Positions 1 to 43,835 of a stretch of 64,000 nt of DNA are shown piece after piece. The translations under genes were made by a program, and so were the position numbers. The notes under the pieces were generated by a model. That model was not told where the DNA came from, did not search any database, and saw nothing but the letters and a program-made list of their open reading frames with translations. This DNA is from Mariprofundus ferrinatatus (GTDB lineage: Bacteria; Pseudomonadota; Zetaproteobacteria; Mariprofundales; Mariprofundaceae). Within the stretch, counting starts at the first letter, position 1, and each line of letters opens with the position of its first letter. The stretch is from the NCBI RefSeq assembly GCF_002795825.1, contig NZ_CP018800.1, forward strand, positions 1,550,001 to 1,614,000. The letters run 5' to 3'.

Positions 1-1554
1 GTGCAGAAGTTCGTCGATATGGCTTCGGCCAACGGTGTGGATGTATTCCGCGTCTTCGATGCCATGAACGACCTGCGCAACGTACGTACGGCAATCAAAC
101 AGGTGAAGGCCAATAACCGTCACGCCGAAGGCACGATCTGCTACACGACCAGCCCCGTGCACACGCTTGAGTATTTTGTCGATCTCGGTAAAGGGCTTGA
201 GGATATGGGGTGCGACACTTTGGCAATCAAGGATATGGCCGGCCTGCTGACCCCGGTCAACACCCGTGAGTTGATTTCAGCACTTAAAAACGAGGTCTCG
301 ATTCCGCTGCACCTTCATTGCCACGCCACATCCGGCGTTGCCGAGATGGTGCAGTGGGAAGCTGTGCATGCCGGTTGTGACATTATCGACACGGCTATCA
401 GCCCGCTTGCAGGCGGCACCAGCCATCCGGCGACCGAATCGATGGTAGCCGCCTTCGCCGGCACCGAGTACGACACAGGGCTCGATCTGGTGGCACTGCA
501 GGCTGTAGCTGCCCACTTCCGTGAAGTACGCAAGAAATATTCCCGCTTCGAGTCCGATGCCACCCGCATGGATACCCGTGTATTCATCAACCAGATTCCC
601 GGCGGCATGATCTCCAATCTCGCCAACCAGCTCAAAGAGCAGGGTGCACAGGATAAGATGGATGAGGTGCTCGATGAGATTCCTCGCGTGCGCAAGGATT
701 TTGGTTACCCGCCACTGGTCACCCCGACCAGCCAGATCGTCGGCACTCAGGCGGTACTCAATGTCGTTTCGGGCAAGAAGTACAAGGTGATTACCAATGA
801 AACCAAGTCCTATCTCAAGGGGATGTACGGCAAGGCACTCGGCATAATCAACGAGGATGTACGAAAGCTGGCGATTGGCGATGAGGAACCGATTGATGTG
901 CGGCCGGCCGATCTGCTGCAGAATGAGATGGACGCCCTGACCCGGGAAATCGGTGACAAAGCGAAATCGGTGGAGGATGTTCTCTCCTATGCGATGTTTC
1001 CGACCATAGCACTGCAGTTCTTCGAAGAGCGCGAAAGCGGTCATTTCAACCCGGAACCGCTTGAGGCCCCGACAGAACCGGCTGGAGCACACTCAGAGGT
1101 GGTTACAGCACAATCGCTGGCGCCTACCGAGTTCAATATCACCATCCACGGCGAGCAGTACAACATCAAGATCGAGGGCTCCGGCCACAAGAGCGAGGAT
1201 GTGCGTCCGTTCTATGTGAAGGTGGATAACATCCTTGAAGAGGTGATGGTGGAATCGCTCACCGAGGTGGTGCCATCCATCGAGGGAAGGATCGACACCA
1301 GGAAGGCATCCAAAGGCTCTCGCAGGCCTAAAGCGCGGAGTGACAGCGATGTTACCACACCGATGCCGGGTCGCGTGGTGACCGTCAGCGTTGCCGTTGG
1401 CGACCATGTCGAGGCCGGTGATACCGTCATGACAGTCGAGGCGATGAAGATGGAAAATCAGGTGTTTGCACCTGTCTCCGGTACCATCAAGGCAATCCAT
1501 GTCGCCGAGGGTGACAGCGTCAACCCGGACGAGTGTCTGATGGAGATCAGCTAA
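1..1554 (+). CDS. Pyruvate carboxylase subunit B / oxaloacetate decarboxylase alpha-type protein, 5' truncated by window edge
   Basis: Carboxyltransferase plus biotin-carrier subunit that moves CO2 between biotin and pyruvate/oxaloacetate in the cytoplasm. The visible 517 residues carry the metal-binding HLHCHATSG of the TIM-barrel domain (about residue 102-110), the conserved carboxylase domain to about residue 340, a linker, and a C-terminal biotinyl domain with the biotinylated lysine in EAMKMEN (lysine about residue 483). The family is near 600 residues and its N-terminal catalytic motif (DTxxRDxxQSL) is absent, so roughly 80-100 residues lie before base 1; the GTG at base 1 is an internal valine, not a start. 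Whether it acts anaplerotically (with a PycA subunit) or as a decarboxylase cannot be decided here. A strong terminator follows. Confidence 0.93.
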   Translation: MQKFVDMASANGVDVFRVFDAMNDLRNVRTAIKQVKANNRHAEGTICYTTSPVHTLEYFVDLGKGLEDMGCDTLAIKDMAGLLTPVNTRELISALKNEVSIPLHLHCHATSGVAEMVQWEAVHAGCDIIDTAISPLAGGTSHPATESMVAAFAGTEYDTGLDLVALQAVAAHFREVRKKYSRFESDATRMDTRVFINQIPGGMISNLANQLKEQGAQDKMDEVLDEIPRVRKDFGYPPLVTPTSQIVGTQAVLNVVSGKKYKVITNETKSYLKGMYGKALGIINEDVRKLAIGDEEPIDVRPADLLQNEMDALTREIGDKAKSVEDVLSYAMFPTIALQFFEERESGHFNPEPLEAPTEPAGAHSEVVTAQSLAPTEFNITIHGEQYNIKIEGSGHKSEDVRPFYVKVDNILEEVMVESLTEVVPSIEGRIDTRKASKGSRRPKARSDSDVTTPMPGRVVTVSVAVGDHVEAGDTVMTVEAMKMENQVFAPVSGTIKAIHVAEGDSVNPDECLMEIS

Positions 1555-1572
1555 GCTTATCACTCTCAATAT

Positions 1573-1607
1573 ACAGAGAGGCCCGGCATTACCGGGCCTC
1601 TCTGTTT
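1573..1607 (+). terminator. Intrinsic terminator after the carboxylase gene
   Basis: Perfect 14-bp stem (1573-1586 with 1592-1605) around a 5-nt loop, built of acagagaggcccgg and its reverse complement. It starts 18 bases after the stop codon. The T-tract is short (tttct), so efficiency is uncertain. Confidence 0.8.
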
Positions 1608-1754
1608 CTGCCGCGTCGACGCAATACACGACACATCCTTGCAGACGCCGGGTGCCGTAATCGCTGGCCTAGATAACTATTCGCGAAGGAACTCGGTGCC
1701 GACCTGGTGACCGAATCCGATTGAACTGCAGTGAATACTGACTTCCACTAGCCC

Positions 1755-1783
1755 TTGCAAGCGGCAAAAAGATCGCATAGAAA
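1755..1783 (+). promoter_or_regulatory. Possible sigma-70 promoter of the GAF-PAS-GGDEF gene
   Basis: TTGCAA (1755-1760) and TAGAAA (1778-1783) are 17 bp apart and lie about 50 bases before the start codon. Both hexamers match the consensus in four of six positions, so this is a weak prediction. Confidence 0.3.
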
Positions 1784-1834
1784 ATAGGCTTACAGTCGCC
1801 AAATGCACCATTTGCCAGCAATTAGGAGGCGAAA

Positions 1835-3628
1835 ATGGCCAAGAGTGAGCCCATAAATCAACATGAAGAGAACAGCCGTACACTGAGCCGGTTATTCTCG
1901 ATCGCATCTACAAGTGTTGATCAGAATCAGATGCTGCACCTTTTTCTGGATGAACTACTTTCGCTAAGCTGGCTCTCTTTGCAGCCCAAGGCAGGCATTT
2001 TTCTCACTATTAAGCGCCCCGGTGAAAAGCCGGTTCTGAAGCTGGAAGCACAACGCAATTTGGATGACTCCATCATCGACGGCTGTGCCAAAATCAGTTT
2101 TGGTGAATGTCTCTGTGGCAAGGCTGCGTCAACAGGCTCGCCAGTTCATGCTAGCTGTATTAACGAGGGCCACGAAAAAATGTATGCAGACATGCCTCCG
2201 CATGGGCACTACAGCGTACCGATTCTCTCTGGCAAGCACGTACTTGGTGTGCTGGTCCTCTACCTTCCCCACGGCACTGAGTATAATCAGAAACATGTCG
2301 ACTTCCTGACACGCTGCACCTCAGTGCTTTCCCTTACTTTGGAATTAAGAGACAAGGAGCGGAAGCTTCTTGAGGTCAACAGGGAGCTAGCCTTTCAAAA
2401 GGCGACCCTAGATCAGCATGCTATCGTCAGCATTGCGGATGCCGCCGGTGACATTGTCTACGCCAATAGTAAGTTCTGCGAAATCAGTGGTTATCATCAG
2501 GAGGAACTGCTTCATCGGAATCACCGTATTCTGAAGTCTGGGGAACACTCCCAAGCATTCTACGAGAAACTTTGGCAAACTATCGGCTCAGGCAAAGTGT
2601 GGCACGGAGAGATCAAAAACAGACGAAAAGATGGGGGGTACTACTGGGTCAATGCCACAATTGTACCTTTTTTAAACGAGGCAGGCCGACCCTTCCAGTA
2701 CGTTGCCATTCGAACCGATATCACAGAACAAAAGAAGATGCAGGATGACTTATCACAGGCTCAAAAAGTAGCCAATATAGGTAGCTGGAGCCTTAATCTG
2801 ACAAATAATGAACTCAGCTGGTCGGATCAGATCTTTAATATTTTCGGCATTGACCAAAGTGAGTTCGAGGCCAGTTACGAAGGGTTCCTAAGCACCATCC
2901 ACCCAGACGACCTTGATATGGTGGGCCAGCGATACCAGCAGTCGCTCAATAATGATATGCCGTATGACATCATTCACCGCATTATACGAAAAGATAACAA
3001 AGAAGTACGCTGGGTGCATGAGGTATGCGCGCACCAGCGCGACAACAATGGCAATGTAATCCGCTCTGATGGAACAGTGCAGGATATCACGGAACGCAAG
3101 CTTGCTCAGGATGAGATTCAACGCTTGGCAATGACCGACCAGTTAACCGGCATTGCCAATCGCAATCAATTCCACCGTCGTTTTGATGAAATTTTAAAGT
3201 TGGCTCGTCGCGAGAAGAAAGTTGTCATTCTGATGCTGCTTGACCTCGACAGGTTCAAACCTGTTAATGATACCTTTGGCCATCAGGTTGGTGACTCGCT
3301 ACTGAAGCAGGCCGCTGCTATTCTGGCAAAAAATTGCCGTGATACCGATGTCGTTGCGCGTTTGGGTGGCGACGAATTTGCCATCATTCTCGTGCATCCC
3401 GACTCTCGAGATCGCGCATCTGAAATATCCGAGAGAATCATCAGCGAGCTAACCAAGCCATTCACGATAGAGAATCAACAAATCAATATCGGAATCAGTA
3501 TCGGTCTGGCCGCCTATCCAGCCGATGCTGACAATGAAGATAGGCTGATCAATCACGCCGACAAAGCTCTCTACAAAGCCAAGGAAGCAGGACGAAATAC
3601 TTATCGTTTCTACTCAGAAGTATTGTGA
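1835..3628 (+). CDS. GAF-PAS-PAS-GGDEF diguanylate cyclase
   Basis: Likely makes cyclic-di-GMP from two GTP in response to a small-molecule or redox signal. Domains in order: GAF (about 10-165), two PAS domains with PAC tails (about 190-300 and 310-425), and a GGDEF domain (about 430-597). The catalytic motif is canonical GGDEF at 511-515, and an inhibitory RxxD (RDTD) sits five residues before it, so product inhibition is expected. There is no EAL domain and no transmembrane segment; it should be cytosolic. Start supported by AGGAGG at 1824-1829. It ends 4 bp from the convergent small membrane protein gene. The ligand of the GAF/PAS sensors cannot be read from sequence. Confidence 0.93.
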   Translation: MAKSEPINQHEENSRTLSRLFSIASTSVDQNQMLHLFLDELLSLSWLSLQPKAGIFLTIKRPGEKPVLKLEAQRNLDDSIIDGCAKISFGECLCGKAASTGSPVHASCINEGHEKMYADMPPHGHYSVPILSGKHVLGVLVLYLPHGTEYNQKHVDFLTRCTSVLSLTLELRDKERKLLEVNRELAFQKATLDQHAIVSIADAAGDIVYANSKFCEISGYHQEELLHRNHRILKSGEHSQAFYEKLWQTIGSGKVWHGEIKNRRKDGGYYWVNATIVPFLNEAGRPFQYVAIRTDITEQKKMQDDLSQAQKVANIGSWSLNLTNNELSWSDQIFNIFGIDQSEFEASYEGFLSTIHPDDLDMVGQRYQQSLNNDMPYDIIHRIIRKDNKEVRWVHEVCAHQRDNNGNVIRSDGTVQDITERKLAQDEIQRLAMTDQLTGIANRNQFHRRFDEILKLARREKKVVILMLLDLDRFKPVNDTFGHQVGDSLLKQAAAILAKNCRDTDVVARLGGDEFAIILVHPDSRDRASEISERIISELTKPFTIENQQINIGISIGLAAYPADADNEDRLINHADKALYKAKEAGRNTYRFYSEVL

Positions 3629-3632
3629 CCTG

Positions 3633-3845
3633 TTACTCAGTATCGCGCTTCCCACCAAAAAGCAGATTAGAGAAGATAATTCCTGGGCAGATGCCGGTAG
3701 CAGCGGCAAAGAGGAAAAAGATCGCCGGAATATAGAGCAGCCAGTGCGCCGTTCCAAAGCCGGTGAGCCAGATACCTGTCAAGAGAATCGTGCTCACTAC
3801 AAGGAAAAAGAATCGCATCGGTTTTCCGATCAGATATTTTTTCAT
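3633..3845 (-). CDS. Small two-helix membrane protein, DUF2892-like
   Basis: 70-residue inner-membrane protein. Two hydrophobic helices (about 10-31 and 34-57) are followed by a short charged tail, and the second helix contains a GICPG motif reminiscent of the GxCPxY/GICP motif of the YgaP-type DUF2892 transmembrane domain. No catalytic domain is present. Start supported by AGGAGGG directly upstream on the minus strand (about 3849-3855). Function unknown; the family assignment rests on motif resemblance only. It is convergent with the diguanylate cyclase gene and lies downstream of the Rossmann-fold gene on the same strand with a 23-bp gap, so the two may be cotranscribed. Confidence 0.75.
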   Translation of the reverse strand: MKKYLIGKPMRFFFLVVSTILLTGIWLTGFGTAHWLLYIPAIFFLFAAATGICPGIIFSNLLFGGKRDTE

Positions 3846-3868
3846 ACCGCCCTCCTGTTCAGACAGCC

Positions 3869-4636
3869 TTACTTCTGTGCCGCGGCAATGCGGCGCAGGG
3901 TCGGCACCTCCAGCCCCGCCTCATCAGCGATGGCCAGCGCCCGCTCCAGACGTGCCGGTGCCGAACGTCCCATACAGCCATGCTCAGGGTCGCCGTCGAA
4001 TGCTTTCAGCATCCCTTCGATAAGAAATTTTCGGTCGAGCTTCTTGCCGGTGAGGTACTCCTGGATATCGAATACATCGCCAGCTACCGAGCAGGCCAGG
4101 TCATTATGCTCCAACCAGAGCTGGCGCACATTGCCGCCGCACTCCAGTCCCGCGATATTGGTGGTCAGGATATAGAGGTTTTTCAGCACCAGCTCGAACA
4201 GCAGCGACTCGTCACTATCCAGTTCGCGCACCGGGATATCGAGCGTAGCCAGAGCCTCGCGCAACACGCCTGCATTGGGGCCAAAGGCGGGTGATGCGAT
4301 CACCACCTTCGAATCCATCCCCCTCTTCTTCTCGAACCAGACCGAAATGACGGTGGGATTCTCGAAGTCGTACGGCTCCCAGTCGCGCGGTAACAGTTCA
4401 TTCTGCAAAAGCACCAGCCGGTCGCACCATGCATCGGGGATCTGCGCCAGCGTGGAATGCAGATCCTTCTCAGCCACGGCGACCACGACCATCTCCGGCT
4501 CCGGAAAATCATCCGCCACCAGCGTCATATCCATTTCTCGGGTCACAGGAACGACCGGGTAGCCGAGTCTCATAACACCCCGAGCAAACACCGACCCGAT
4601 CTCCCCGATCCCGATCACTATTACTGGTTTATCCAT
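3869..4636 (-). CDS. NAD(P)-binding Rossmann-fold protein (ketopantoate-reductase-like)
   Basis: 256-residue soluble protein with a dinucleotide-binding Rossmann fold at its N-terminus (VIGIGEIGSVFARG near residues 6-20), then a helical C-terminal part, the layout of 6-phosphogluconate/ketopantoate reductase-like proteins. The substrate is not evident, and the sequence is not close enough to PanE or ProC to name it. I set the start at the ATG at 4636, preceded by GGAGGT at 4641-4646; an upstream in-frame ATG at 4663 lacks a ribosome site. Possibly cotranscribed with the small membrane protein gene downstream. Confidence 0.72.
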   Translation of the reverse strand: MDKPVIVIGIGEIGSVFARGVMRLGYPVVPVTREMDMTLVADDFPEPEMVVVAVAEKDLHSTLAQIPDAWCDRLVLLQNELLPRDWEPYDFENPTVISVWFEKKRGMDSKVVIASPAFGPNAGVLREALATLDIPVRELDSDESLLFELVLKNLYILTTNIAGLECGGNVRQLWLEHNDLACSVAGDVFDIQEYLTGKKLDRKFLIEGMLKAFDGDPEHGCMGRSAPARLERALAIADEAGLEVPTLRRIAAAQK

Positions 4637-4717
4637 ACACACCTCCAGACTCTTTGCCGCCAAAGTGTACGCATCTGTGCCTCAGGAAAAAACCACCCGA
4701 ATACAGAACGGGACATT

Positions 4718-4743
4718 AAAAAGGGCGGCCAATGGCCGCCCTT
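4718..4743 (-). terminator. Intrinsic terminator of ettA
   Basis: Ten-bp stem aagggcggcc / ggccgccctt (4721-4730 with 4734-4743) with a 3-nt loop. On the minus strand it ends in a run of five T, just after the ettA stop codon. Confidence 0.85.
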
Positions 4744-4753
4744 GTTGATTTGA

Positions 4754-6424
4754 TCAGACCAGCTTCTTGTACTTGATGCGGTGCGGCTCGGTGGCGTCGT
4801 CACCGAGACGGCGGCGCTTGTCCGCCTCGTAATCCTCGAAGTTGCCCTCGAACCACTCGACATGCCCCTCACCTTCAAATGCAAGCATGTGCGTGGCGAC
4901 ACGGTCGAGAAACCAGCGGTCATGCGAGATCACCACAGCACAACCCGGGAAGTCGAGTAGCGCCTCTTCCAGCGCACGCAGGGTTTCAACATCAAGGTCG
5001 TTGGTAGGCTCATCCAGCAGCAGTACATTGCCACCCGACTTCAGCATCTTGGCCAGATGCACGCGGTTGCGCTCACCGCCGGATAACACGCTCACCTTCT
5101 TCTGCTGATCGCCGCCCTTGAAGTTGAAGCGTCCACAGTAGGCACGGCTCGGCACCTCGACCCTGCCGAGCAGCATTGAATCAGCACCGCCGGAAATCTC
5201 CTCCCAGACGGTCTTGTTGCCGTCGAGCGCATCACGCGACTGGTCGACATAGGAGAGCTGAACCGTCTCGCCGATGGTCAGCGTGCCCGAGTCGGGCTGC
5301 TCCTGGCCGGTGAGCATCCGGAAGAGCGTGGTTTTGCCAGCACCGTTGGCACCGATAATGCCGACAATACCTCCTCTGGGCAGGTTAAAGGAGAGGTTCT
5401 CCACCAGCACCTTGTCACCGAAACCCTTCTTGATTCCTTCAGCCTTGATCACGGTATCGCCCAGACGCTCGGAGACCGGGATATAGATCTGCTTGGTAGC
5501 GTTACGCTCCTGCACCTCGCGGCTTGAGAGGTCATCAAATGCCTTCAAGCGCGCCTTGGACTTGGCATGGCGCCCCTTGGCCCCCTGACGCACCCACTCC
5601 AATTCATGTTTCATCGCCTTCTGGCGTGCAGTCTCCTGCTTCTCCTCAATGGCAAGGCGCTTCTCCTTCTGCTCCAGCCATGATGAGTAGTTGCCCTCGA
5701 ACGGAATACCGCGGCCGCGATCGAGTTCAAGAATCCAGCCGGCTACGTTATCAAGGAAATAACGGTCATGGGTTACTGCCACAACGGTGCCTGAATAGTC
5801 ATGAAGGAAGCGTTCCAGCCAAGCCACCGACTCGGCATCGAGATGGTTGGTCGGCTCATCCAGCAGCAGCATGTCGGGGGCTGAAAGCAGCAGCCTGCAG
5901 AGCGCCACACGGCGGCGTTCGCCACCGGACAGCTTGGTCACATCGGCATCCCATGCAGGCAGACGCAGTGCATCCGCAGCGATCTCCAGCTTGCGATCGA
6001 GATTGTGGCCGTCGGCCGCCTCGATAATTGCTTCGAGTTTGGCCTGCTTGGTGGCAATGGCGTCGAAATCGGCATCGGGATCGGCGTAAGCTGCATAGAC
6101 CGCATCGAGTTCAGCCAGTGCATCCTTGATCGGCTGCACCGCCTCCTCGACATTGCCACGCACATCCTTGGAAGGGTCGAGCTCCGGCTCCTGCGAAAGA
6201 TAACCGATGCGGATACCCGGAGCAGGACGCGCCTCACCGAGAATCTCCGTATCAATACCGGCCATGATCTTGAGCAGTGTCGATTTGCCGGCACCGTTCA
6301 GGCCCAGCACGCCGATTTTCGCACCCGGCAGAAAGGAGAGCCAGATGTCCTTGAGAATCTCTTTCTTGCCGGCAACAACCTTGCCGACCCCCTGCATCGA
6401 ATAGATATACTGATAATCGGCCAT
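4754..6424 (-). CDS. ettA: Energy-dependent translational throttle protein EttA (ABC-F ATPase)
   Basis: Cytosolic ABC-F protein that binds the ribosomal E site and gates entry into elongation according to ATP/ADP ratio. It has two nucleotide-binding domains with Walker [10 protein letters not shown] (about residue 35) and GANGAGKTT, two ABC signatures ([12 protein letters not shown] and [12 protein letters not shown]), Walker [12 protein letters not shown] / [11 protein letters not shown], and a linker of the ABC-F type. At 556 residues it matches E. coli EttA (555). Start set at the ATG at 6424, with GGAGG about 6 bases upstream; an in-frame ATG at 6502 would add 26 residues absent from the family. 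No membrane domain, which excludes a transporter. Confidence 0.95.
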
Positions 6425-6664
6425 GATGAGCCTCCGGAAAAAATGTCCGCGCAAGCTATGGGTTAAGCAGAACGATTCAAGCCAGAGTGTGGTATCAGGC
6501 ACCTGTCCCGGGACTATAAGAGTATGTTCTTTCTGATATATACCGCGTGCCGTTACTGTTTTCTGTTATTTTGACAATCGAAAACAGCCCGATGCACAAC
6601 GCCACGCTTCCTGATCGGACTCCTCTAGCAAGGCTGTAGATACCGAACCGACTGCTGAAAGACT

Positions 6665-7024
6665 CTACATATCACATCTTACGATTGCATCCGCTACGGC
6701 TATGAGTTGCTCGGGGTTAAACGGCTTGGACAAAAAGTGGCAGGGATCTGTTCTAACTGCTCCATCTTTTCCCTCATAGCCGGAAATAACCACGAACTTT
6801 TGATTCGGAAATTTCTCTCGAACTTCTTCAATCAGTTCATAGCCGTTCATCCTGGGCATCCGGACATCAGTGATTATCGCAACCGGGGAGATGTAGCTGT
6901 CACTGTTTACATAATCGAGATATTCAAACGGGCAGGAGAAAGCCTTGCCGCCATATCCGGCGACATCGAGCAACTCAACAATGAGCTCACGAACGTGCTC
7001 GTTATCATCTACAACATGAAACAT
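6665..7024 (-). CDS. Stand-alone response regulator receiver (CheY-like)
   Basis: 119-residue single receiver domain. The acidic pocket D6-D7, phosphoacceptor D53 (in TDVRMPRMNG) and the conserved lysine in LSKPF are all present, so phosphotransfer should work. There is no output domain; it probably acts by protein contact or as a phosphate sink. No adjacent kinase gene: the nearest histidine kinase is the hybrid kinase at about 8.2-11.3 kb on the same strand, with an SDR gene between. The ribosome-binding site is poor (a G-rich patch about 14 bases from the ATG), and an in-frame stop just upstream rules out a longer protein. Confidence 0.85.
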   Translation of the reverse strand: MFHVVDDNEHVRELIVELLDVAGYGGKAFSCPFEYLDYVNSDSYISPVAIITDVRMPRMNGYELIEEVREKFPNQKFVVISGYEGKDGAVRTDPCHFLSKPFNPEQLIAVADAIVRCDM

Positions 7025-7121: not shown

Positions 7122-7223
7122 TTAATTCATCGTTCCTTTAGAGCGGTTCGTCCCTGCAACAAACCTGATGTACCCCACGATGGCGATAAGAACCACAGTA
7201 AATACGAAAAAGAAGATCAACAT
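7122..7223 (-). CDS. Possible 33-residue membrane peptide
   Basis: The only coding candidate in the 394-base gap between the receiver gene and the SDR gene. The reading frame gives MLIFFFVFTVVLIAIVGYIR followed by a short polar tail, i.e. one strongly hydrophobic helix with a positive cytoplasmic end, typical of small inner-membrane proteins. No convincing Shine-Dalgarno precedes the ATG, and the frame stays open for at least 13 codons upstream, so the start is uncertain. The rest of the gap shows nothing I can interpret. Low confidence. Confidence 0.35.
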   Translation of the reverse strand: MLIFFFVFTVVLIAIVGYIRFVAGTNRSKGTMN

Positions 7224-7418
7224 GATCGCAGCCCCATAATATCTATTTATCGGCACCAGACTCGATTTCTGTAGTGAGAAATATCTCCATGGATCAAAAG
7301 CAGTGTTTCGATTCAGCCGCCCCTCGCAAGATCAGTATCGGCTTCGAATTCGCAGCGCATATCAGAGGATGTGCTTTTCGGAAGCTATCGTTACTATGCC
7401 GCAGGCAGGGGGAATCAG

Positions 7419-8159
7419 ATGTCAGAATTCAAAGATAGAATCATTATGGTAACCGGCGCATCCGATGGTATCGGCCAGCAGGTTGCGGCGGCATTGGGTG
7501 AAGCAGGTGCCAACGTGATTGCATTGGGACGCAACGAAGAGGGTTTGCAGTTGACAATGGAGCGCATCGAGTCACTGGGCGGGCGCTGCCTCTGCATCCC
7601 TTTCGACCTCCATGATTTCGATAATTACGGCAAACTGTTCCTCGCCCTGAAAGATCAGATTCCGCATCTCGACGGGCTGGTGCACTGCGCCGGCGAGATC
7701 GAGCGCTGCACGCCGATGCAGTATGTGAAAACGAAGGATTTCAGGAAAATGCTCGATATCCATCTCACGGCACCGAACATGCTGACCCAGATCATGCTGC
7801 CGTTACTCAAGCGCGCCCCTTCCGCATCGATCATCTTTACCACGTGCGAAATGGTTTCCGAGGATAAGGCCAACTGGCACGGCTACGGACTGGCCAAACG
7901 TGCGCTGGCCTATGCTGCAGCCATGTGGCAGATGGAACATCCCGAAAAACCTTACCGGTTCAATACGCTAAATCCGGGGCGTGTCCGCACCAAGCTGTTC
8001 AAGCGCACCTACGGCGGCGAACATCCGGATATGGTGCCGGAAGCGGCAACCGTGGTTCCCGCCTATCTCTACCTGTTGTCGGACGACTCTAAAGAGATGC
8101 GTGGACAGACCCTGCATGCCCGCGACCTGATCGGCTCATCTCCCGAGCAGCCCAGCTAG
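7419..8159 (+). CDS. SDR-family oxidoreductase (YciK-like) with Cys at the catalytic Ser position
   Basis: 246-residue classical short-chain dehydrogenase: cofactor motif TGASDGIG near the N-terminus, and the YxxxK pair as YGLAK. The order and spacing resemble the YciK-type SDRs of proteobacteria (KANW before the tyrosine). Thirteen residues before the catalytic Tyr, where the catalytic Ser normally sits, there is Cys (FTTCE), with two Thr just before it; the usual NNAG is HCAG. It may therefore be weakly active or use Thr/Cys. Start chosen at 7419 with AGGGGG upstream; an in-frame ATG at 7371 adds 16 unlikely residues. Convergent with the histidine kinase gene. Confidence 0.85.
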   Translation: MSEFKDRIIMVTGASDGIGQQVAAALGEAGANVIALGRNEEGLQLTMERIESLGGRCLCIPFDLHDFDNYGKLFLALKDQIPHLDGLVHCAGEIERCTPMQYVKTKDFRKMLDIHLTAPNMLTQIMLPLLKRAPSASIIFTTCEMVSEDKANWHGYGLAKRALAYAAAMWQMEHPEKPYRFNTLNPGRVRTKLFKRTYGGEHPDMVPEAATVVPAYLYLLSDDSKEMRGQTLHARDLIGSSPEQPS

Positions 8160-8162
8160 GCC

Positions 8163-8180
8163 TGTCAGGCTTTCCTGACA
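8163..8180. repeat. Hairpin at convergent gene ends
   Basis: Perfect 7-bp inverted repeat tgtcagg / cctgaca with a 4-nt loop, straddling the stop codon of the histidine kinase and starting 4 bases after the SDR stop. There is no T-run on either side, so it is not a clear terminator. Confidence 0.4.
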
Positions 8181-11100
8181 TCCTGCTCAACCCCTTCGAG
8201 CAGCAGCAGTGCGGCGTCGAAATCGTAACCGTCGAGATACTTTTTCATGCGCGGAAGTTTCGCAGCAATGGCTGTATTGGCCAGCACAGCCTCAAGCTCA
8301 CCAAGCAGATCCACCGCATCACCGTTATAATCCTCAAGCATAGCACGCATGCGTGCGAGTACGGCATCGGCCTGCTCACGGTCAAACTCACCACTGAGCT
8401 CGGCCTCAACGGCCTCCTCCTGACCTTCGGGAAACTCCGGCTCGATCTCCGCCTGCTCTCCCCCGATCCCGCTACTTATTGATGTAATGACCTCTGCCAT
8501 ACTTTTTTCAACACTGGAATAATCATCTTCTGCTATCGTGCCACCATCCTGAAGCAGCCCCTCCAGACGAGCTGCCTCAGCATGTAACGTTTTAGCACCG
8601 ATATTACCCGCCACACCCTTGAGCGAATGCATCAACCGGATCGCTTTCTCACCATCACCGCCAGCCATTGCCTGTCGAAGCTCGGCAATCACATCTCCCT
8701 GACTCTCAACAAACTTGCCGAGAATGTTGCGGTAATGCTGCGGATCGCCACCTACACGCCTTAGACCATCGGCCGTATCGATACCCTCAAACTTCGGCAG
8801 GCCACCCCCTTCTATACTCTGGCTGATCCCCGATTCACCAAGCCGGAAGCTGCTGATCCACTTCTCCAGCTTGGAGTAGAGGTCTGCAGGATCAATCGGT
8901 TTGGCAATATGATCGTTCATGCCAGCCTCAAAACAGTCTCGCACATCTGAAGGCAGCACGTTGGCCGTCATGGCGATGATCGGCAAATCGGCAAACGCCG
9001 GTTCCGAGCGGATAATACGCGTTGCCTCAAGGCCATCCATGACCGGCATCTGCATATCCATCAGTACCCCATCAAAGCTGTCACTGCGTACAGCATCGAT
9101 AGCCTCCTGACCGTTATGGGCCACAAACAGGCTTACACCGGCCCGCATCAACAGCCCTTCGGCCACCATCTGGTTAATCGGGTTATCCTCGACCAGCAGT
9201 AGCCTTGCGCCATGCAGGCTCACACTCTTGCCTGCGCTCTTCTCCTGCTCCTGCGTCTGTTCACTTACATTATTGTAACCGAATACGGATACGATCGACT
9301 CCAGAATCGAGGAGGCAGTCACGGGTTTTAACAGCGTTATCGCAAACCCTGCCGCCCTGGCATCTTCATCAGAAATGCTCTGTCCGTAGTTGGCAGTCAG
9401 GATGACCGGTGGAAACGCTTTTACTCTGGCTGCCTTCTTAATCAGGCCCAGTGTTTCAAGACCCTGTGTCTCTTCCAGTGTCCAATCAACAATCATCAAA
9501 CCATATGGATCATCAGCCGCTTTAAGTTCTTTGGCTGCCTCTTTCACAGTCGAGACACACTCCGGTCGCATGCCGAAGCTTTCGATAAAGCGTGAGAGAA
9601 TGAGCTTGGATGTAGGATTATCATCGACAACCAGAGTACGTAGCCTCTGCAGTTCGTGGGGAACATCGAATGTTTGTGATTCACTCTCCTTTGCTGCCTC
9701 AAACCGGGCAGTGAAATAGAAGCTGCTACCCTTGCCTTCAACGCTGTCCAGGCCGATCTCACCGTGCATCATCTCAACCAGCTGCTTGCAGATGGCAAGA
9801 CCGAGGCCCGTACCTCCGAAGCGGCGGGTAATCGAGCTGTCGGCCTGGGTAAATGCCTGGAATAGCCTGGACTGCTGCTCCTCGGTAAGACCGATGCCGG
9901 TATCGGTCACGGTAAAACGGATCAAATGGCCGGAAACATCGGACTGCTGCAGGCGGGCACAAACGATAACCTGCCCCTCTTCGGTAAATTTAACCGCATT
10001 GTTCACCAGGTTCAGAAGCACCTGGCCAAGCCGGTGCGGATCTCCATTCAGCCGAGGCATATGCGGAGGGAAATCGATCAGGAAGTCGAGTCCCTTCTCA
10101 CTGGCGCGTACACCACCGATACTGGCGAGATTGTGCATCACCTCATCCATTTCAAAATCGATCCGATCCAGCTCCATTTTATGCGCCTCGATCTTGGAGA
10201 AATCAAGAATGTCATTGATAATGGAGAGCAGCACCTCGGATGCCTCAAGCGTTTTCGTCAGGTAGTTGCGCTGCTGTTTGTCGGTTTCACGATCTAGCGT
10301 CAGGTGGGTCAGCCCGATCACGGCATTCATCGGCGTACGGATCTCATGGCTCATATTGGCCAGGAACTCGCTTTTTGACTGCGTGGCGGCAATGGCCTTG
10401 TCACGCGCCTCGGCAAGCTCCCTGGTGCGAATCTCGACCTGCTCCTCCAGCAACAGGCTGTGATCTTCCAGCTTGGCATAGGATTCGCGAAGGCTGGCTG
10501 CCATCTCCTCCAGCGAGGATACAAGCACACCGATCTCATCATTGGTCCTTGTGCTGATATGCGGCGTGGCATCGAAATCACCATTGGCGATCTCATGGGA
10601 AAAGGCCACCAGTTGCCTAATCGGACGCGTCCACATGCCAGCCAGAAAGTAGACCAGAATCGAGCCAACGAACAGAAAAAGCAGCGCTGTCAGTGTTGCC
10701 TGCAGTACCAGGTTATTGATCTCTTCCGCGACATAGGCCTCCGACTCTTTCAGCGACTGGTTCAGCTCCTGCAGTGAAAACCCGAGACGGAGAACGCCCC
10801 ACTGCTCACCCTCTATCCGGATCGGCACGATCGATTCCATAAAGGCCAGATCACCAACGACAAAGTCGTGTTTGATGCTCCCGGTCTGACTAACTGCAAA
10901 TTCGGATGCATGCCCCCTGAGAATCTCCTGCCTGATTTCACTGCTCAGATTGGGGCCAAACGCAATTTTGGGCTGATCCTCCTGCATCAGGATCACATAT
11001 TTAAGATCATCAACATCGCGCACCAGTTCACTGACATACTGGTAGGCAAGCGACAATCGAAAGGTTGCGACAAGATCGGTCAGATGGCCGGCCATCTGCA

Positions 11101-30091: not shown

Positions 30092-30167
30092 GCGGGTATA
30101 GCTCAGTTGGTAGAGCGCGACCTTGCCAAGGTCGAGGTCACCGGTTCGAGCCCGGTTACCCGCTCCA
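30092..30167 (+). tRNA. tRNA-Gly(GCC), copy 1
   Basis: 76-base cloverleaf: acceptor arms gcgggta / tacccgc, T-loop ggttcgagcc, anticodon loop ttGCCaa, and an encoded 3' CCA. Reads GGC/GGT. Identical to the copy at 30410. Confidence 0.97.
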
Positions 30168-30174
30168 GATTAAA

Positions 30175-30199
30175 GGGGGGCAGCGCCCCCCTTTTTTTT
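30175..30199 (+). terminator. Intrinsic terminator between tRNA-Gly and tRNA-Cys of unit 1
   Basis: Six-G/six-C stem (30175-30180 with 30186-30191) with loop cagcg followed by eight T. It lies inside the tRNA pair, so transcripts from the unit-1 promoter should mostly end after tRNA-Gly. Confidence 0.85.
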
Positions 30200-30215
30200 C
30201 TTCATGGTTGATAAC

Positions 30216-30290
30216 GGCAGGGTGGCTCAGTGGTACGGCGGAGGACTGCAAATCCTTTATTCGCGAGTTCGATTCTCGCCCCTGCCTCCA
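30216..30290 (+). tRNA. tRNA-Cys(GCA), copy 1
   Basis: 75-base cloverleaf with acceptor arms ggcaggg / ccctgcc, U discriminator (a cysteine identity element), anticodon loop ctGCAaa and encoded CCA. Identical to the copy at 30527. It sits downstream of a terminator. Confidence 0.96.
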
Positions 30291-30370
30291 ACCAATCCAT
30301 CGGATCGAAACAGAAACCTTATCACTGGCAAATCAGACCCTGCATTTTCACTGTAAAACCACGATCCCCT

Positions 30371-30398
30371 TTGACAACGCCTGAACAGAAGGCAATAT
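30371..30398 (+). promoter_or_regulatory. Promoter of the second tRNA-Gly/tRNA-Cys unit
   Basis: TTGACA (30371-30376), 16-bp spacer, CAATAT (30393-30398), then a C-rich discriminator before the tRNA at 30410. Hexamers and spacing match the unit-1 promoter although the spacer sequence differs. Confidence 0.75.
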
Positions 30399-30409
30399 TC
30401 GCCCTCTTC

Positions 30410-30485
30410 GCGGGTATAGCTCAGTTGGTAGAGCGCGACCTTGCCAAGGTCGAGGTCACCGGTTCGAGCCCGGTTACCCGCTCCA
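30410..30485 (+). tRNA. tRNA-Gly(GCC), copy 2
   Basis: Identical to the copy at 30092-30167, including the encoded CCA. In this unit the linker to tRNA-Cys lacks a strong terminator. Confidence 0.97.
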
Positions 30486-30526
30486 GGTTTAAAAGGGATA
30501 ATCCCCTTATGTAAGTGGTTGATAAC

Positions 30527-30601
30527 GGCAGGGTGGCTCAGTGGTACGGCGGAGGACTGCAAATCCTTTATTCGCGAGTTCGATTCTCGCCCCTGCCTCC
30601 A
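30527..30601 (+). tRNA. tRNA-Cys(GCA), copy 2
   Basis: Identical to the copy at 30216-30290. It ends 18 bases before the stop codon of the convergent glnE gene; no strong terminator is visible between them. Confidence 0.96.
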
Positions 30602-40131: not shown

Positions 40132-40701
40132 ATGGCAATTGATATTTCATGGCTGGAAAAGAACATACTGAAAAGAGAGGTCACGGCGGCTGAACGCAGC
40201 GCCCTTGACTGCATAACCGTCTCCAACTTTTCTGCCGGAGAGAAGATCATTACCGAGGGGCAGGCCGGTGGCACGCTAGAGATCATGCGCTCCGGCAAGG
40301 CCAAGGTTGAGGATAATAACCGCTACGAGGGCCGCGTCATTCTCGCCGAGATCGAATCCGGAACCATTTTCGGCGAACTCAGCTTCCTGAACAGCAAGCG
40401 CAAGAGTGCCGACGTAACCGCCCTCGAAGATTGCGTGGTTTACGATCTTAAACAGGAAGATTTCACCGAACTGATGAAGAATCATCATGAACTGGCCTAC
40501 ACCATCCTTACCGCCATCATGGATCGCCAGACCAGTATCATTATGTCCCAGCGCGTCACGCTCGCACCGCTGCTGCGCAACCTGAAAGAGAAGGCCAAGA
40601 AGCTGCCGCTGTTTATCAAGGTGGCCCCGGTTGTCTTTATCATCCTATATATACTGGCCTTCTTCTACATCTCCTACAAAGACTTCGATTACAGCAACTA
40701 A
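40132..40701 (+). CDS. Cyclic-nucleotide-binding domain protein with C-terminal membrane anchor
   Basis: 189-residue protein: a cNMP-binding fold (about 25-145) and a C-terminal hydrophobic helix (about 163-183) followed by a short tail, so it is tethered to the inner membrane with the sensor in the cytoplasm. The phosphate-binding cassette reads FGELSFLNSKRKSADVTA: the Glu is kept, but the Arg that contacts the cyclic phosphate is replaced by Lys, so the ligand may differ from cAMP or be weak. No DNA-binding or channel domain is attached. Start at 40132 with AGGAG; a class III cyclase and a CpdA-type phosphodiesterase lie 3-5 kb downstream. Confidence 0.86.
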   Translation: MAIDISWLEKNILKREVTAAERSALDCITVSNFSAGEKIITEGQAGGTLEIMRSGKAKVEDNNRYEGRVILAEIESGTIFGELSFLNSKRKSADVTALEDCVVYDLKQEDFTELMKNHHELAYTILTAIMDRQTSIIMSQRVTLAPLLRNLKEKAKKLPLFIKVAPVVFIILYILAFFYISYKDFDYSN

Positions 40702-40766: not shown

Positions 40767-40853
40767 TCTGCCTGCATCAACTTCACGAAGGGCTGCTTCC
40801 GGCCAGTTTCGGTCATTCAATTATCAGGTATAACGCTTCACATCACCAGCAGC

Positions 40854-40887
40854 AAAAAAGCAGCGCGGGGAACGCGCGGCGCTTTTT
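40854..40887. terminator. Likely bidirectional terminator before the GNAT gene
   Basis: G/C-rich imperfect hairpin (agcgcggggaacgcgcggcgc) between an A-run (40854-40859) and a T-run (40883-40887). It would end transcripts of the minus-strand GNAT gene and reinforce the previous terminator. Confidence 0.6.
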
Positions 40888-40922
40888 CTGTCCGGGTGCA
40901 TGTGATTATTATGTTTTTTTGG

Positions 40923-41459
40923 TTACCAATAGACGGGGTCAATGAATTCCTTAACGCACAGGGGACGTTTACTGATAGTAGGAATTGGCTCTCCCGTTAA
41001 AGACTGCCCAAGCCAGCCAAAAGGCATTGAGAGCTTTAGCGGAGCCTTAATTACATTTTCTGAAAGCGCCTGAAACCCTACCTTTGAATAAAAGGATGGA
41101 TCTCCATATGTAACAGCAACATTAGCAGCGCGCCTTTTCAGTTCATCAAGCCCGTAATTGATTAAAGCCTGACCGATTCCTTTGCCCTGATGTTCAGCGC
41201 TCACTGCAACTGGGGCGAGCATGTAAACCAGAATAGGCTTACTAAAATGAAGGCGAGTGAAAAAAATACAACCGATGAGTGTTTCATCTTCGTATGCGCC
41301 GATACAGATTATTTCTTTATTGTCGATGTTTGATGCCAACTGTAAAGAAAGGCTGCCAATCAATTTTCCTTCCTTTTCGCCCTCTGATGAGGTGAATACA
41401 GAAGTGAATAGCTCTTCTACCTCTTTTTGTTTTGATTTGTCCAAGATTCGATGAATCAT
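40923..41459 (-). CDS. GNAT family N-acetyltransferase
   Basis: 178-residue acetyl-CoA-dependent transferase of unknown substrate. The acetyl-CoA-binding motif A is VSAEHQGKGIGQALI (about 88-102), followed by YGDPSFYSKVGF. The gene uses clearly more A/T-rich codons (many AAA, GAA, ATT, TTT) than the flanking rsgA or rpiA genes, as do the next two minus-strand genes, suggesting transfer from elsewhere. AAGG lies about 6 bases before the ATG. A toxin role is not supported: no antitoxin-like partner is next to it. Confidence 0.9.
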   Translation of the reverse strand: MIHRILDKSKQKEVEELFTSVFTSSEGEKEGKLIGSLSLQLASNIDNKEIICIGAYEDETLIGCIFFTRLHFSKPILVYMLAPVAVSAEHQGKGIGQALINYGLDELKRRAANVAVTYGDPSFYSKVGFQALSENVIKAPLKLSMPFGWLGQSLTGEPIPTISKRPLCVKEFIDPVYW

Positions 41460-41564
41460 GCCTTACCTTTCAAGATTTCTGCTCTTATCGTTTTGGAATA
41501 TAACATATATTAGACACCATTTTGGTGACTATTCTGACTTGGTGAAGCTGGCGAGGTCGAGTGT

Positions 41565-41577
41565 CTGTTGCTGGCCG
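41565..41577 (+). repeat. Short dispersed repeat (ctgYtKctggccg) in the accessory patch
   Basis: ctgttgctggccg, related to the copies at 42056-42071 and 43795-43810. It lies in the 137-base gap between the GNAT and DUF1801 genes, which otherwise shows no coding signal. Confidence 0.35.
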
Positions 41578-41596
41578 AGAGCTGTCATTCATAGCC

Positions 41597-41965
41597 TTAG
41601 CTGTTTATCGATAGCTCTAATGCCTGTTTAACAAAAGACGCTACTTTCTTGGCCTCAATATCAGCCAAGCCGTGGATTTTTATATGGCGGCGAAACTTAC
41701 CACCTCCCTCCAGTATGTTGCTTGGATCATCCAAGCTGGCTCCGAAAGAAAATTCGAACGAGACATGGTTTTTGTAAGCGAAGATACCTCCAAAATCCCT
41801 TTCTAGAGAGAGCATTATGCCGCCATACATCATTCGCTCATTGATATTCGAATCAGTCTGGAATACGACTTTGCGAAGTTTCTCTATGATATCTGATTTA
41901 TCAGGATCGCTGACAATAATATCGTCCAGAAAACTCTGAACCTGTTCATTATTTGAACTTGTCAT
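41597..41965 (-). CDS. DUF1801 domain protein
   Basis: 122-residue soluble protein of the DUF1801 (YdhG-like) family: the motif MMYGGIMLSLERDFGGIFAYKNHVSFEF matches the family core (Y-G.P.f and K.H.sl.f), shortened by neighbours, and the C-terminal HIKIHGLADIEAKKVASFVKQAL fits. Function of the family is unknown (some members bind small ligands). Start at 41965 with GGAGGG; the in-frame ATG at 42019 adds unlikely residues. A/T-rich like its neighbours. Confidence 0.8.
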   Translation of the reverse strand: MTSSNNEQVQSFLDDIIVSDPDKSDIIEKLRKVVFQTDSNINERMMYGGIMLSLERDFGGIFAYKNHVSFEFSFGASLDDPSNILEGGGKFRRHIKIHGLADIEAKKVASFVKQALELSINS

Positions 41966-42055
41966 TGCTTCCCTCCGGTTGATTGAGTTGCGACTAAATA
42001 TGGTGAACTGAAAAACCATCCTGTTTCAGCCTACTTTAGCATGATATACAAATGC

Positions 42056-42084
42056 CTGCTTCTGGCCGTTCTAAGACGGTCAGA
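42056..42084 (+). repeat. Short dispersed repeat with hairpin
   Basis: ctgcttctggccgttc (42056-42071) followed by a near-perfect 9-bp hairpin (tctggccgt with acggtcaga, loop of 6). Related to copies at 41565 and, inverted, at 43795. Non-coding. Confidence 0.45.
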
Positions 42085-42100
42085 ATGCTAGAGCGCTAGT

Positions 42101-42138
42101 CTCAATCCAGTGGCACCCAGATTTGTCCGGACTGGGGA
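42101..42138 (+). repeat. Direct repeat, left copy, flanking the cysteine-rich gene
   Basis: 38-base element; its last 23 bases are identical to those of the copy at 42559-42596, and the first 15 are about two-thirds identical. It contains the pair cccag / ctggg. Similarity continues for about 20 more bases: after a 7-base variable stretch both copies have actcgaac, which on the minus strand reads gttcgagt, like a tRNA T-arm. Confidence 0.75.
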
Positions 42139-42217
42139 ACCTTGAGTCACTCGAACCAACTGAGTTGAATGACTACTTGCGGCCATAATTAGATTTAAAT
42201 GTTACTGAATTGGGAGT

Positions 42218-42427
42218 TTATACCCTACCCTTTGCTTCATGGTAGTAGATGCAGCCAAGCGCACACACATCTTCTTTCTTTGCGTATGGGTGACTACTCC
42301 TTTCAAGCTCAATGCCATGGTTGTTGCATAATGTGTCTTCTACTTCCCAGCAGCGCATGGGCGCCTTCAGTCTATACATTGGGCAATCTACATTGTGACA
42401 ACCTAAGTACTCATAGCATTGTTCCAT
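42218..42427 (-). CDS. Small cysteine-rich protein (two-CW-like)
   Basis: 69-residue protein with eight cysteines in a regular pattern (CYEYLGC, DCPMY, RCWEVEDTLC, VCALGCIYY) and one CW pair. The arrangement recalls the two-CW and related metal- or disulfide-binding domains found in proteobacterial redox sensors, but I cannot prove that. Start at 42427 with GGAG 7 bases upstream. No signal peptide, so cytosolic if the cysteines bind a metal. It is flanked by two direct repeats and has a Fur-like site upstream. Confidence 0.75.
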   Translation of the reverse strand: MEQCYEYLGCHNVDCPMYRLKAPMRCWEVEDTLCNNHGIELERSSHPYAKKEDVCALGCIYYHEAKGRV

Positions 42428-42482
42428 GTCTTTCTCCAATCGACTTCTAACTAAACAAATAGCTCCTTATCATTATTATTGT

Positions 42483-42501
42483 AGCAATGATAATCGTTAA
42501 T
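42483..42501 (-). promoter_or_regulatory. Fur-box-like sequence upstream of the cysteine-rich gene
   Basis: AATGATAATCGTTA (42486-42499) matches the core 14 bases of the classical Fur box in 13 positions; the outer bases do not match. It lies about 60-75 bases upstream of the minus-strand start, where a promoter would be expected. A/T-rich DNA makes chance matches easier, so this needs testing. Confidence 0.4.
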
Positions 42502-42558
42502 TTGAAGAGATGGCTGCATCTGACTGGTTTGAGATAGTCAAAAGTTGATAGGAATCAC

Positions 42559-42596
42559 CTCATTCCAATAGTGCCCAGATTTGTCCGGACTGGGGA
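42559..42596 (+). repeat. Direct repeat, right copy, flanking the cysteine-rich gene
   Basis: Same orientation as the copy at 42101-42138, 458 bases away. Similarity extends into actcgaac (42608-42615) after a 7-base variable stretch, as in the left copy. Together they bracket one gene and its promoter region. Confidence 0.75.
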
Positions 42597-42706
42597 GCCA
42601 GGCAGGACTCGAACGAATGGCCGAGATTGCTCCCTGATGACCTGCAGGAGTCAGCCACCATTGGACATGAAAGCCCTGCATGGCTCTATCTGTTCACATG
42701 GCGCGG

Positions 42707-43741
42707 TTATTTTTTACCTGACTTAGACTTTTTGTAGGCATGTATGTAACGCCCGAACTCCCTCTCTTTCGCCCTTTTCTCCGCCAGGGTGGCGGCATTC
42801 AGCTCCTGCTCTTTCATCAGCTTCAGGTAATTGGCAAGGCGCCGCCCATCCAGATCCCCTGATTCAATTGCAGCACGGACGGCACATCCGGGCTCATTCT
42901 CATGCTGGCAGTTCTTAAACCTGCACTGCCCGGCAAGCTCACCGATTTCGCGGAAGGTTTCATCGACCCCCTGCTCGCAGCCGGCCAGTTGAAGTTCCCG
43001 CATACCAGGCGTATCGAGCAGAAGTCCGCCCGAGGGGAGCATGTGAATGGATCGCGATGTCGTGGCGTGGCGACCCTTTGCATCATCTTCCCGGATAGAA
43101 CTGGTATGTTGGACATGCTCTCCAAGCAGGGTGTTGATCAGTGTTGATTTGCCAACACCGGACGAGCCAAGAAAGGCGAGTGTTTTCCCTTCTGCGCACC
43201 AGGCATCCAGCTTGCGCACACTGTCCGAATCAAGGCTGTTCACGGCAACTGTTTCAAGAAACCGATCCATCGCATTTATCTGTTCTATGTATTGATCCGG
43301 ATCTTCGCAGGTATCAAGTTTTGTCAGGATAATTACAGGCTCAACGCCTGCCTCATTGGCCAACGCCAGGTAGCGTTCAATACGATTGAGGTTGAAATCC
43401 TGATTCATGGAGCTGACGATAAACACCGTATCGATATTGGAAGCAATCAATTGAGTTGAAACCTTCGTGCCGGCGGCCTTGCGGGAAAAAAGCGAAAGCC
43501 TCTCGAGCAGACGGATAAATTTTCCCGATGCGTCGAGTACAACCCAGTCGCCGACCGCGAACGCAGGCATACCTTTAGAGATATGAATCGATCTCCTGCC
43601 CTCTGAAGTCTGCACATGGATTACGCCTCTTTCCTGCGAGATCACTCGCCCCATTGTGGCGCTTTCCCACTCCTCAAGCGTGAGCTGTTGCTGGTAATAT
43701 GGCTTCCAACCCAACTGAATCAGTGCACTGACATCTGGCAA
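42707..43741 (-). CDS. rsgA: Ribosome biogenesis GTPase RsgA
   Basis: 344-residue circularly permuted GTPase that helps mature the 30S subunit. Order G4 (TKLDTC) - G1 (GSSGVGKST) - G3 (DTPGM) is typical of the permuted YjeQ/RsgA family, preceded by an OB fold and followed by a zinc-binding motif CRFKNCQHENEPGC. Start set at a TTG at 43741, with AGGAGG 5 bases upstream; the longer TTG at 43780 would add 13 residues. It is on the minus strand, downstream of the accessory patch on its own strand, and is of normal base composition. Confidence 0.93.
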   Translation of the reverse strand: MPDVSALIQLGWKPYYQQQLTLEEWESATMGRVISQERGVIHVQTSEGRRSIHISKGMPAFAVGDWVVLDASGKFIRLLERLSLFSRKAAGTKVSTQLIASNIDTVFIVSSMNQDFNLNRIERYLALANEAGVEPVIILTKLDTCEDPDQYIEQINAMDRFLETVAVNSLDSDSVRKLDAWCAEGKTLAFLGSSGVGKSTLINTLLGEHVQHTSSIREDDAKGRHATTSRSIHMLPSGGLLLDTPGMRELQLAGCEQGVDETFREIGELAGQCRFKNCQHENEPGCAVRAAIESGDLDGRRLANYLKLMKEQELNAATLAEKRAKEREFGRYIHAYKKSKSGKK

Positions 43742-43794
43742 AACAACCTCCTGAAACCCTATCTGCACACTACCGGGCAACCCTTAGTTGCCGA

Positions 43795-43810
43795 ATGGCC
43801 GGAAGCAGCA
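43795..43810 (-). repeat. Third copy of the short dispersed repeat, inverted
   Basis: Minus strand reads ctgcttccggccattc, 14 of 16 bases identical to the copy at 42056-42071. Lies in the 94-base gap between rsgA and the phosphodiesterase gene. Confidence 0.4.
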
Positions 43811-43835
43811 GCTCACACCTATGCCAATCAGATGA

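Follow-up and report, generated by a model that had tools for sequence, protein, structure and literature searches.

Integrons and CALINs are arrays of small AT-rich gene modules with one recombination site each, and some of these arrays are orphans without an enzyme. The SCC and ECC cassette chromosomes are driven by large serine recombinases (LSRs; CcrA, CcrB or CcrC) and form composite islands with several attR-type sites in tandem. ECC elements have att sites of about 50 bp with dyad symmetry and several attR sites per island (PMC6222049), and SCC elements occur both as composite tandem islands and as pseudo-SCC elements without ccr (PMC6243372). Serine integrases act on attP and attB sites composed of half-sites about a central dinucleotide (PMC3783163). 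The locus described here, from the zetaproteobacterium Mariprofundus ferrinatatus, is a variant of the LSR cassette-chromosome type of island, and SCC/ECC is the closest known system. No description of serine-recombinase gene-cassette arrays like these was found in the open-licence papers searched.

The locus lies in a window of 64,000 nucleotides (G000:C1:1550001-1614000) from a complete genome of 2.30 Mb. A repeat search of the window gave a single family of direct repeats, 59 nt long and 78% identical, at 42101-42159 and 42559-42617, with a spacing of 458. The 23-nt stretch CCCAGATTTGTCCGGACTGGGGA is identical between the two copies. This confirms the direct repeat with 23 identical bases reported at 42101 and 42559 in a sequence-only reading of the window: the 22-nt repeat core occurs only twice, even with up to three mismatches allowed, and 0.00 occurrences are expected by chance (100 shuffles). 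Both copies also contain the tail ACTCGAAC, which in reverse complement (GTTCGAGT) reads as the T-loop of tRNA-Asn. In the same genome there is a clear third copy at 284314, and a profile search detected the repeat at 627241 and fragments at 1110959, 232516 and 320245. The repeat is therefore low-copy and dispersed, and is not limited to the cysteine-rich gene between the two window copies.

Read on the minus strand, each copy consists of an arm b (GTTCGAGTCCTGC..), a core GGCTCCCC and an arm p (GACAAATCTGGGCACC..TTGG). The b half GTTCGAGTCCTGC matches the 3′ end of tRNA-Asn, and the p half GACAAAtCTGGGCACC matches an arm found beside LSR genes in two relatives (G011 and G017). It is very probable that each repeat is a hybrid att site of an LSR, with the structure b·core·p of an attR-type junction. 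In the first repeat (w1), the p half-site or element arm, TCCGGACAAATCTGGGTGCCACTGG, occupies 42107-42131 on the minus strand, with a p-arm score of 35.5 out of a possible 40.4. It is followed by the core at 42132-42139, with the predicted crossover dinucleotide TC at 42138/42137, and by a diverged tRNA-Asn-like b half-site, GTTCGAGTGACTCAAGG, at 42140-42156 (b-arm score 15.1, maximum 28.4). The same b-arm variant also ends the orthologous module in G011 (L087:10170-10186). The second repeat (w2), also on the minus strand, scores higher in both arms: its p half-site TCCGGACAAATCTGGGCACTATTGG at 42565-42589 scores 39.4 of 40.4, its core lies at 42590-42597 with the predicted TC at 42596/42595, and its b half-site GTTCGAGTCCTGCCTGG at 42598-42614 scores 26.7 of 28.4 and is identical to the tRNA-Asn 3′ end over its first 13 nt. 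The tRNA-Asn gene of the same genome has the 3′ end GTTCGAGTCCTGCTCGGGGAGCCA, which is the same as that of the G017 tRNA-Asn, and is unoccupied.

The same p arm is present in 26 b·p sites. When these were aligned, the first position of the central dinucleotide was T in all 26 and the second was C in 25, and TC is also the centre of palindromic b·b sites. A second form of the site is found in relatives, with the core inverted relative to the arms (GTTCGAGTCCTGC-TTGGGGAGCCA-GTTCGGGACAAA..). Two such forms are what palindromic arms around an asymmetric core must produce: with b·core·b as attB and p·core·p as attP, insertion creates two junctions, one of each form. An intact attP (p·p) was absent from all assembled sequences scanned.

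These half-sites bear on whether the repeat might be a non-mobile dispersed intergenic element of the REP, ERIC or MITE kind, or a tRNA fragment that flanks a gene by chance. The copies are indeed intergenic and partly tRNA-Asn-like, and carry on the p side an extension of about 60 nt whose GGCCG...GGTCA motif may itself be a distinct dispersed repeat. Against this, two independent half-sites occur in the combinations b·b, b·p and p·b, at a spacing that hardly varies, they are linked to LSR genes, and an exact pair of empty and occupied sites exists (see below). The repeat is also present in only a few copies per genome and is missing from most relatives; profile matches were obtained in 14 of the 78 genomes of the class, and the core is present in a Zetaproteobacteria MAG. 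It is thus neither carried by all relatives nor a common background repeat, two outcomes that would have spoken against the sequence-only reading, and we regard a non-mobile origin as highly improbable.

Other origins of the repeat were considered and rejected. The 3′ end of the genome's own tmRNA does not match it, no Rfam family was credible, and p-arm matches in IMG/VR lay inside unrelated ORFs (terminase-like), with no LSR relative confirmed there. No credible plasmid or phage copies of the repeat were found.

In some copies the p arm is lengthened by a conserved insert of about 70 nt (GGATAAATCATCAGGATAGATGATTT...GGGTGAAnnCCATGGGTGGCCTGAATGACAAAACTGGGCACC), at L158:7391-7511, L160:6230-6325, L162:6020-6132 (position 232520 of the window's own genome) and L087:9665-9760; the insert had no Rfam match in L158, L160 or L162. 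In addition, many copies are prolonged on their p and b sides by motifs of a family CCGnTTTTGGCCGnTCTAAGACGGTCA / GGCCGGAAGCTGCC. This family is present at 42063-42100 and recurs near the island ends, at approximately 40790-40830 and 43790-43810, and may represent an independent repeat dispersed in these genomes.

The LSR genes beside the p arm encode P0001 in G011 and P0002 in G017, which are 82% identical and contain Resolvase, Recombinase and Zn-ribbon domains. Each of the two genes ends inside a b·core·p site, with the inverted-core form at the 3′ end of the gene. In G017 an intact tRNA-Asn supplies the b arm with its 3′ end, and the LSR gene runs into this tRNA. The proposal that the repeats are a tRNA-derived attachment site is therefore supported, both by the b arm itself and by the position of the G017 recombinase against an intact tRNA-Asn. 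This link between LSR and att sites was seen in G011 and G017 only. The window's own genome contains neither a PF07508 LSR nor a homologue of P0001, so the array is at present either an orphan or reliant on an LSR acting in trans.

The best NCBIfam match of P0001 is CcrB (1.7e-45), although at 155.7 bits it falls well under the equivalog cut-off of 900. Among solved structures, those of SPbeta YokA and the TP901-1 integrase are closest to P0001, and it shares its domain layout with phage-type serine integrases (A118/LI, TP901-1, SPbeta YokA), as the sites share with theirs attP and attB half-sites and a central dinucleotide. Unlike phage integration, however, small elements here lack an integrase of their own and b·p sites stand in tandem; no phage genes were seen near the att sites. 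The composite islands with tandem attR-type sites resemble SCC/ECC, whereas the targets are the tRNA-Asn 3′ end and dispersed noncoding, intergenic palindromes rather than rlmH, the modules may consist of a single gene (0.46-4 kb), and the system is found in a Gram-negative zetaproteobacterium.

A gene for a Rep_trans-like replication protein (a weak match, below the cut-off) adjoins the LSR gene in G011 (L087:14284-15930) and in G017 (L166:1134-2401); the autonomous element may therefore be a small replicon in integrated form.

If the repeats are hybrid sites, empty palindromic b·core·b (attB) sites are predicted. The first three were encountered by half-site scanning, before any pattern search. 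A search with a fixed pattern gave 10 palindromic b·b sites in 6 of the 78 genomes, and the reversed control pattern gave none. One example is GTTCGAGTCCTGCACGGCTCCCCATGCAGGACTCGAAC in G011; none of the ten is a tRNA. An occupied site and its empty counterpart could be compared at the pan locus, where G011 and the window's own genome align over the left flank (own positions 1-5628 and 6486-6666) and the right flank (own positions 7199-8446). Between the flanks G011 has 8.1 kb, consisting of a cysteine-rich gene, a GGDEF gene and then a 6-kb element with a histidine kinase, a Rep-like gene and the LSR gene; the window's own genome has 0.5 kb, with a cysteine-rich paralogue. When the G011 flanks were joined at the two cores of the 6-kb element, the product corresponded to the own-genome sequence without a gap at the junction, and aligned to it with a score of 153, versus 92 and 87 for the unjoined flanks. 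The 6-kb LSR element of G011 is therefore exactly absent from the window's own genome at this locus.

Other loci gave less complete pairs. In G011, an empty b·b site comes after the gene that borders the window insertion on its left; this pair is weaker, because G011 is rearranged beyond that point. At the DinB locus the b·b site is empty in G011, while G020 has an AriAB (PARIS) gene in an element flanked by a site on either side; the outer flanks are rearranged. At the leuD locus a site occupies the same position in G015 and G001, but the cargo differs.

The repeats in the window bound a module that also occurs elsewhere. Its gene, at 42218-42439 on the minus strand, encodes a cysteine-rich protein of 73 amino acids (69 from the ATG at 42427). 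The protein is 90-92% identical to the G011 copy, has 7 cysteines that are invariant across 7 homologues, and could not be placed in a Pfam or NCBIfam family; some of its homologues in relatives lie away from any recognisable site. The segment 42063-42582 is 92% identical to L087:9746-10263 of G011, which is a different locus, as against roughly 75% in the core DNA of both genomes. The G011 homology begins, at the w2 end, with the core itself, once a difference of about 70 nt in the length of the G011 p arm is allowed for. From this recurrence and its edge at the core it follows that the gene moves together with its upstream region and one b·p site, and that the repeats bound a 458-bp module. 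On the basis of the G011 homology, the mobile module runs from core to core on the minus strand, in the order p(w2), cysteine-rich gene, b(w1), at 42138-42595. The idea of a cassette-like unit is thus borne out by the second occurrence of the gene with one repeat, at 92% identity, and the module appears to be one unit of a tandem array.

The module is part of a larger insertion. On the p side of w1 lies a DUF1801 gene (41597-42019, minus strand; PF08818, 1.6e-15) in a segment of low GC content (42%), the probable cargo of the next module, followed by a gene for a GNAT acetyltransferase (40923-41459, minus strand; PF13508, 1.6e-10), which is probably cargo and lies within the same insertion. 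In G015, G020, G019 and G016, matches to window positions 40695 and 43840 adjoin each other. The flanking genes are thus neighbours in four relatives, and the DNA from about 40.77 to 43.84 kb is inserted. The whole insertion (40770-43835, no strand assigned, ends approximate) comprises the GNAT gene, the DUF1801 gene, w1, the cysteine-rich gene, w2 and a second rsgA gene. Half-site scans of both outer ends gave no clear site.

The second rsgA (42707-43780) appears to have been acquired; another rsgA homologue lies at position 2163440 of the genome. Within the genus, orthologues with 77-78% identity were found only in G020 and G003, in unrelated surroundings. These loci were rejected as orthologous empty sites for that reason, and rsgA was recognised as part of the insertion.

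Cargo lies on the p side of the sites. At 29 sites the p side is AT-richer, with a GC content of 42.3% versus 50.3% (Wilcoxon 2.4e-6, a test that is not fully independent because some of the sites are related). The cargo, some of it for anti-virus defence, comprises the PARIS gene AriAB (5e-109) and Abi-alpha/PDC-S47 (3e-54), both in related arrays, PDC-S60 (1e-27), GGDEF and PAS signalling proteins, GNAT and DUF1801. Tandem sites are found, besides w1 and w2, in G011 (L087, 10195 and 11671, with 17686) and in G036 (L096). Elements of 1.2-4 kb that are bounded by a pair of sites and contain cargo genes but no LSR are present in G020, G017, G036, G003 and G001, and most of the arrays found carry no LSR.

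With its small AT-rich genes, a repeat of the same orientation after each of them, and no enzyme in some arrays, the system has a layout like that of integrons and CALINs, and the sequence-only reading had proposed a search for attC-like folding. No integron attC was found. No RYYYAAC...GTTRRRY pair spans either repeat, so the core boxes are missing, and single-strand folds were weak, mostly no better than those of shuffled sequences (one of seven copies reached a z of -2.3). Tyrosine recombinase (PF00589) genes of the window's own genome are far from all repeat copies, and cargo orientation is not constant, the GGDEF gene in G011 being reversed. The sites are double-stranded palindromic half-sites and the recombinase is of the serine, not the tyrosine, type; an integron-type cassette with attC sites and a tyrosine integrase is extremely unlikely.

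In the mechanism that we propose, a CcrB-like LSR would recognise two kinds of half-site: b, present at the tRNA-Asn 3′ end and in the dispersed palindromic attB sites, and p, the attP arm of the element. Crossover at the near-invariant central TC of the core, between attB (b·core·b) and attP (p·core·p), would give the two hybrid junction forms. A circle carrying b·p and inserted into b·b would yield b·b plus b·p, with the target regenerated, and arrays would grow as circular b·p cassettes recombine with b·b or b·p sites. Insertion by an LSR at b·b sites is strongly supported by the sequence comparisons. We infer that a P0001-type LSR would be the catalyst, and that arrays would grow by recombination of circular b·p cassettes.

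Textbook LSRs do not recombine attL- or attR-type sites with attB or with each other (PMC3783163), and standard LSR directionality gives no account of the tandem layout b·p [module] b·p. Array growth would therefore need relaxed specificity, an accessory factor or homologous recombination. An alternative accepts the same att-site identification and differs only on how the arrays formed: whole LSR elements inserted side by side and were then mostly deleted, leaving genuine att remnants in passive tandem, and modules spread by homologous recombination without a cassette mechanism. We give this a little less than an even chance. It would explain why the window's own genome and most arrays have no LSR, it agrees with the normal rejection of attR by attR, and ECC elements likewise have multiple attR sites (16/32; PMC6222049). 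It accounts less readily for the same 458-bp module at different loci in two species with its edge at the core, and for the recurrence of LSR-less paired elements in five genomes. Independent movement of the modules as cassettes is much less certain than the identity of the att sites, and we would place it between doubtful and evenly balanced. Still more tentative, and in our estimate rather unlikely, is a full serine-recombinase counterpart of the integron, in which single-gene b·p circles would enter b·b sites and regenerate them, arrays of defence and other genes would grow at dispersed palindromic attB sites, and the LSR would be supplied from elsewhere.

With the att sites identified in this way, a puzzling repeat is tied to a concrete enzyme and target. 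The islands would form an SCC-like modular system in iron-oxidising Zetaproteobacteria, with modules down to a single gene; PARIS (AriAB), Abi-alpha and one more candidate defence gene are among the cargo. Should the LSR be able to recombine b·b with b·p, this would be a second, chemically different bacterial route to gene-cassette arrays. The system also offers a defined LSR together with matching attB and attP halves and attB sites that are naturally dispersed, all open to direct testing in a laboratory strain.

Two further features were observed. A tandemly duplicated tRNA-Gly(GCC)/tRNA-Cys(GCA) pair lies in the window at 30092-30601. A second LSR family, with about 50-70% identity among its members, is found beside PAS histidine-kinase genes at G003:C4:321265 (L107), G011:1125598 (L111) and G003:C4:624568 (L112); the kinase reading frame is interrupted at its conserved H-box ...TLVGGIAHDF in L107 and L112, as though the second LSR targeted this motif.
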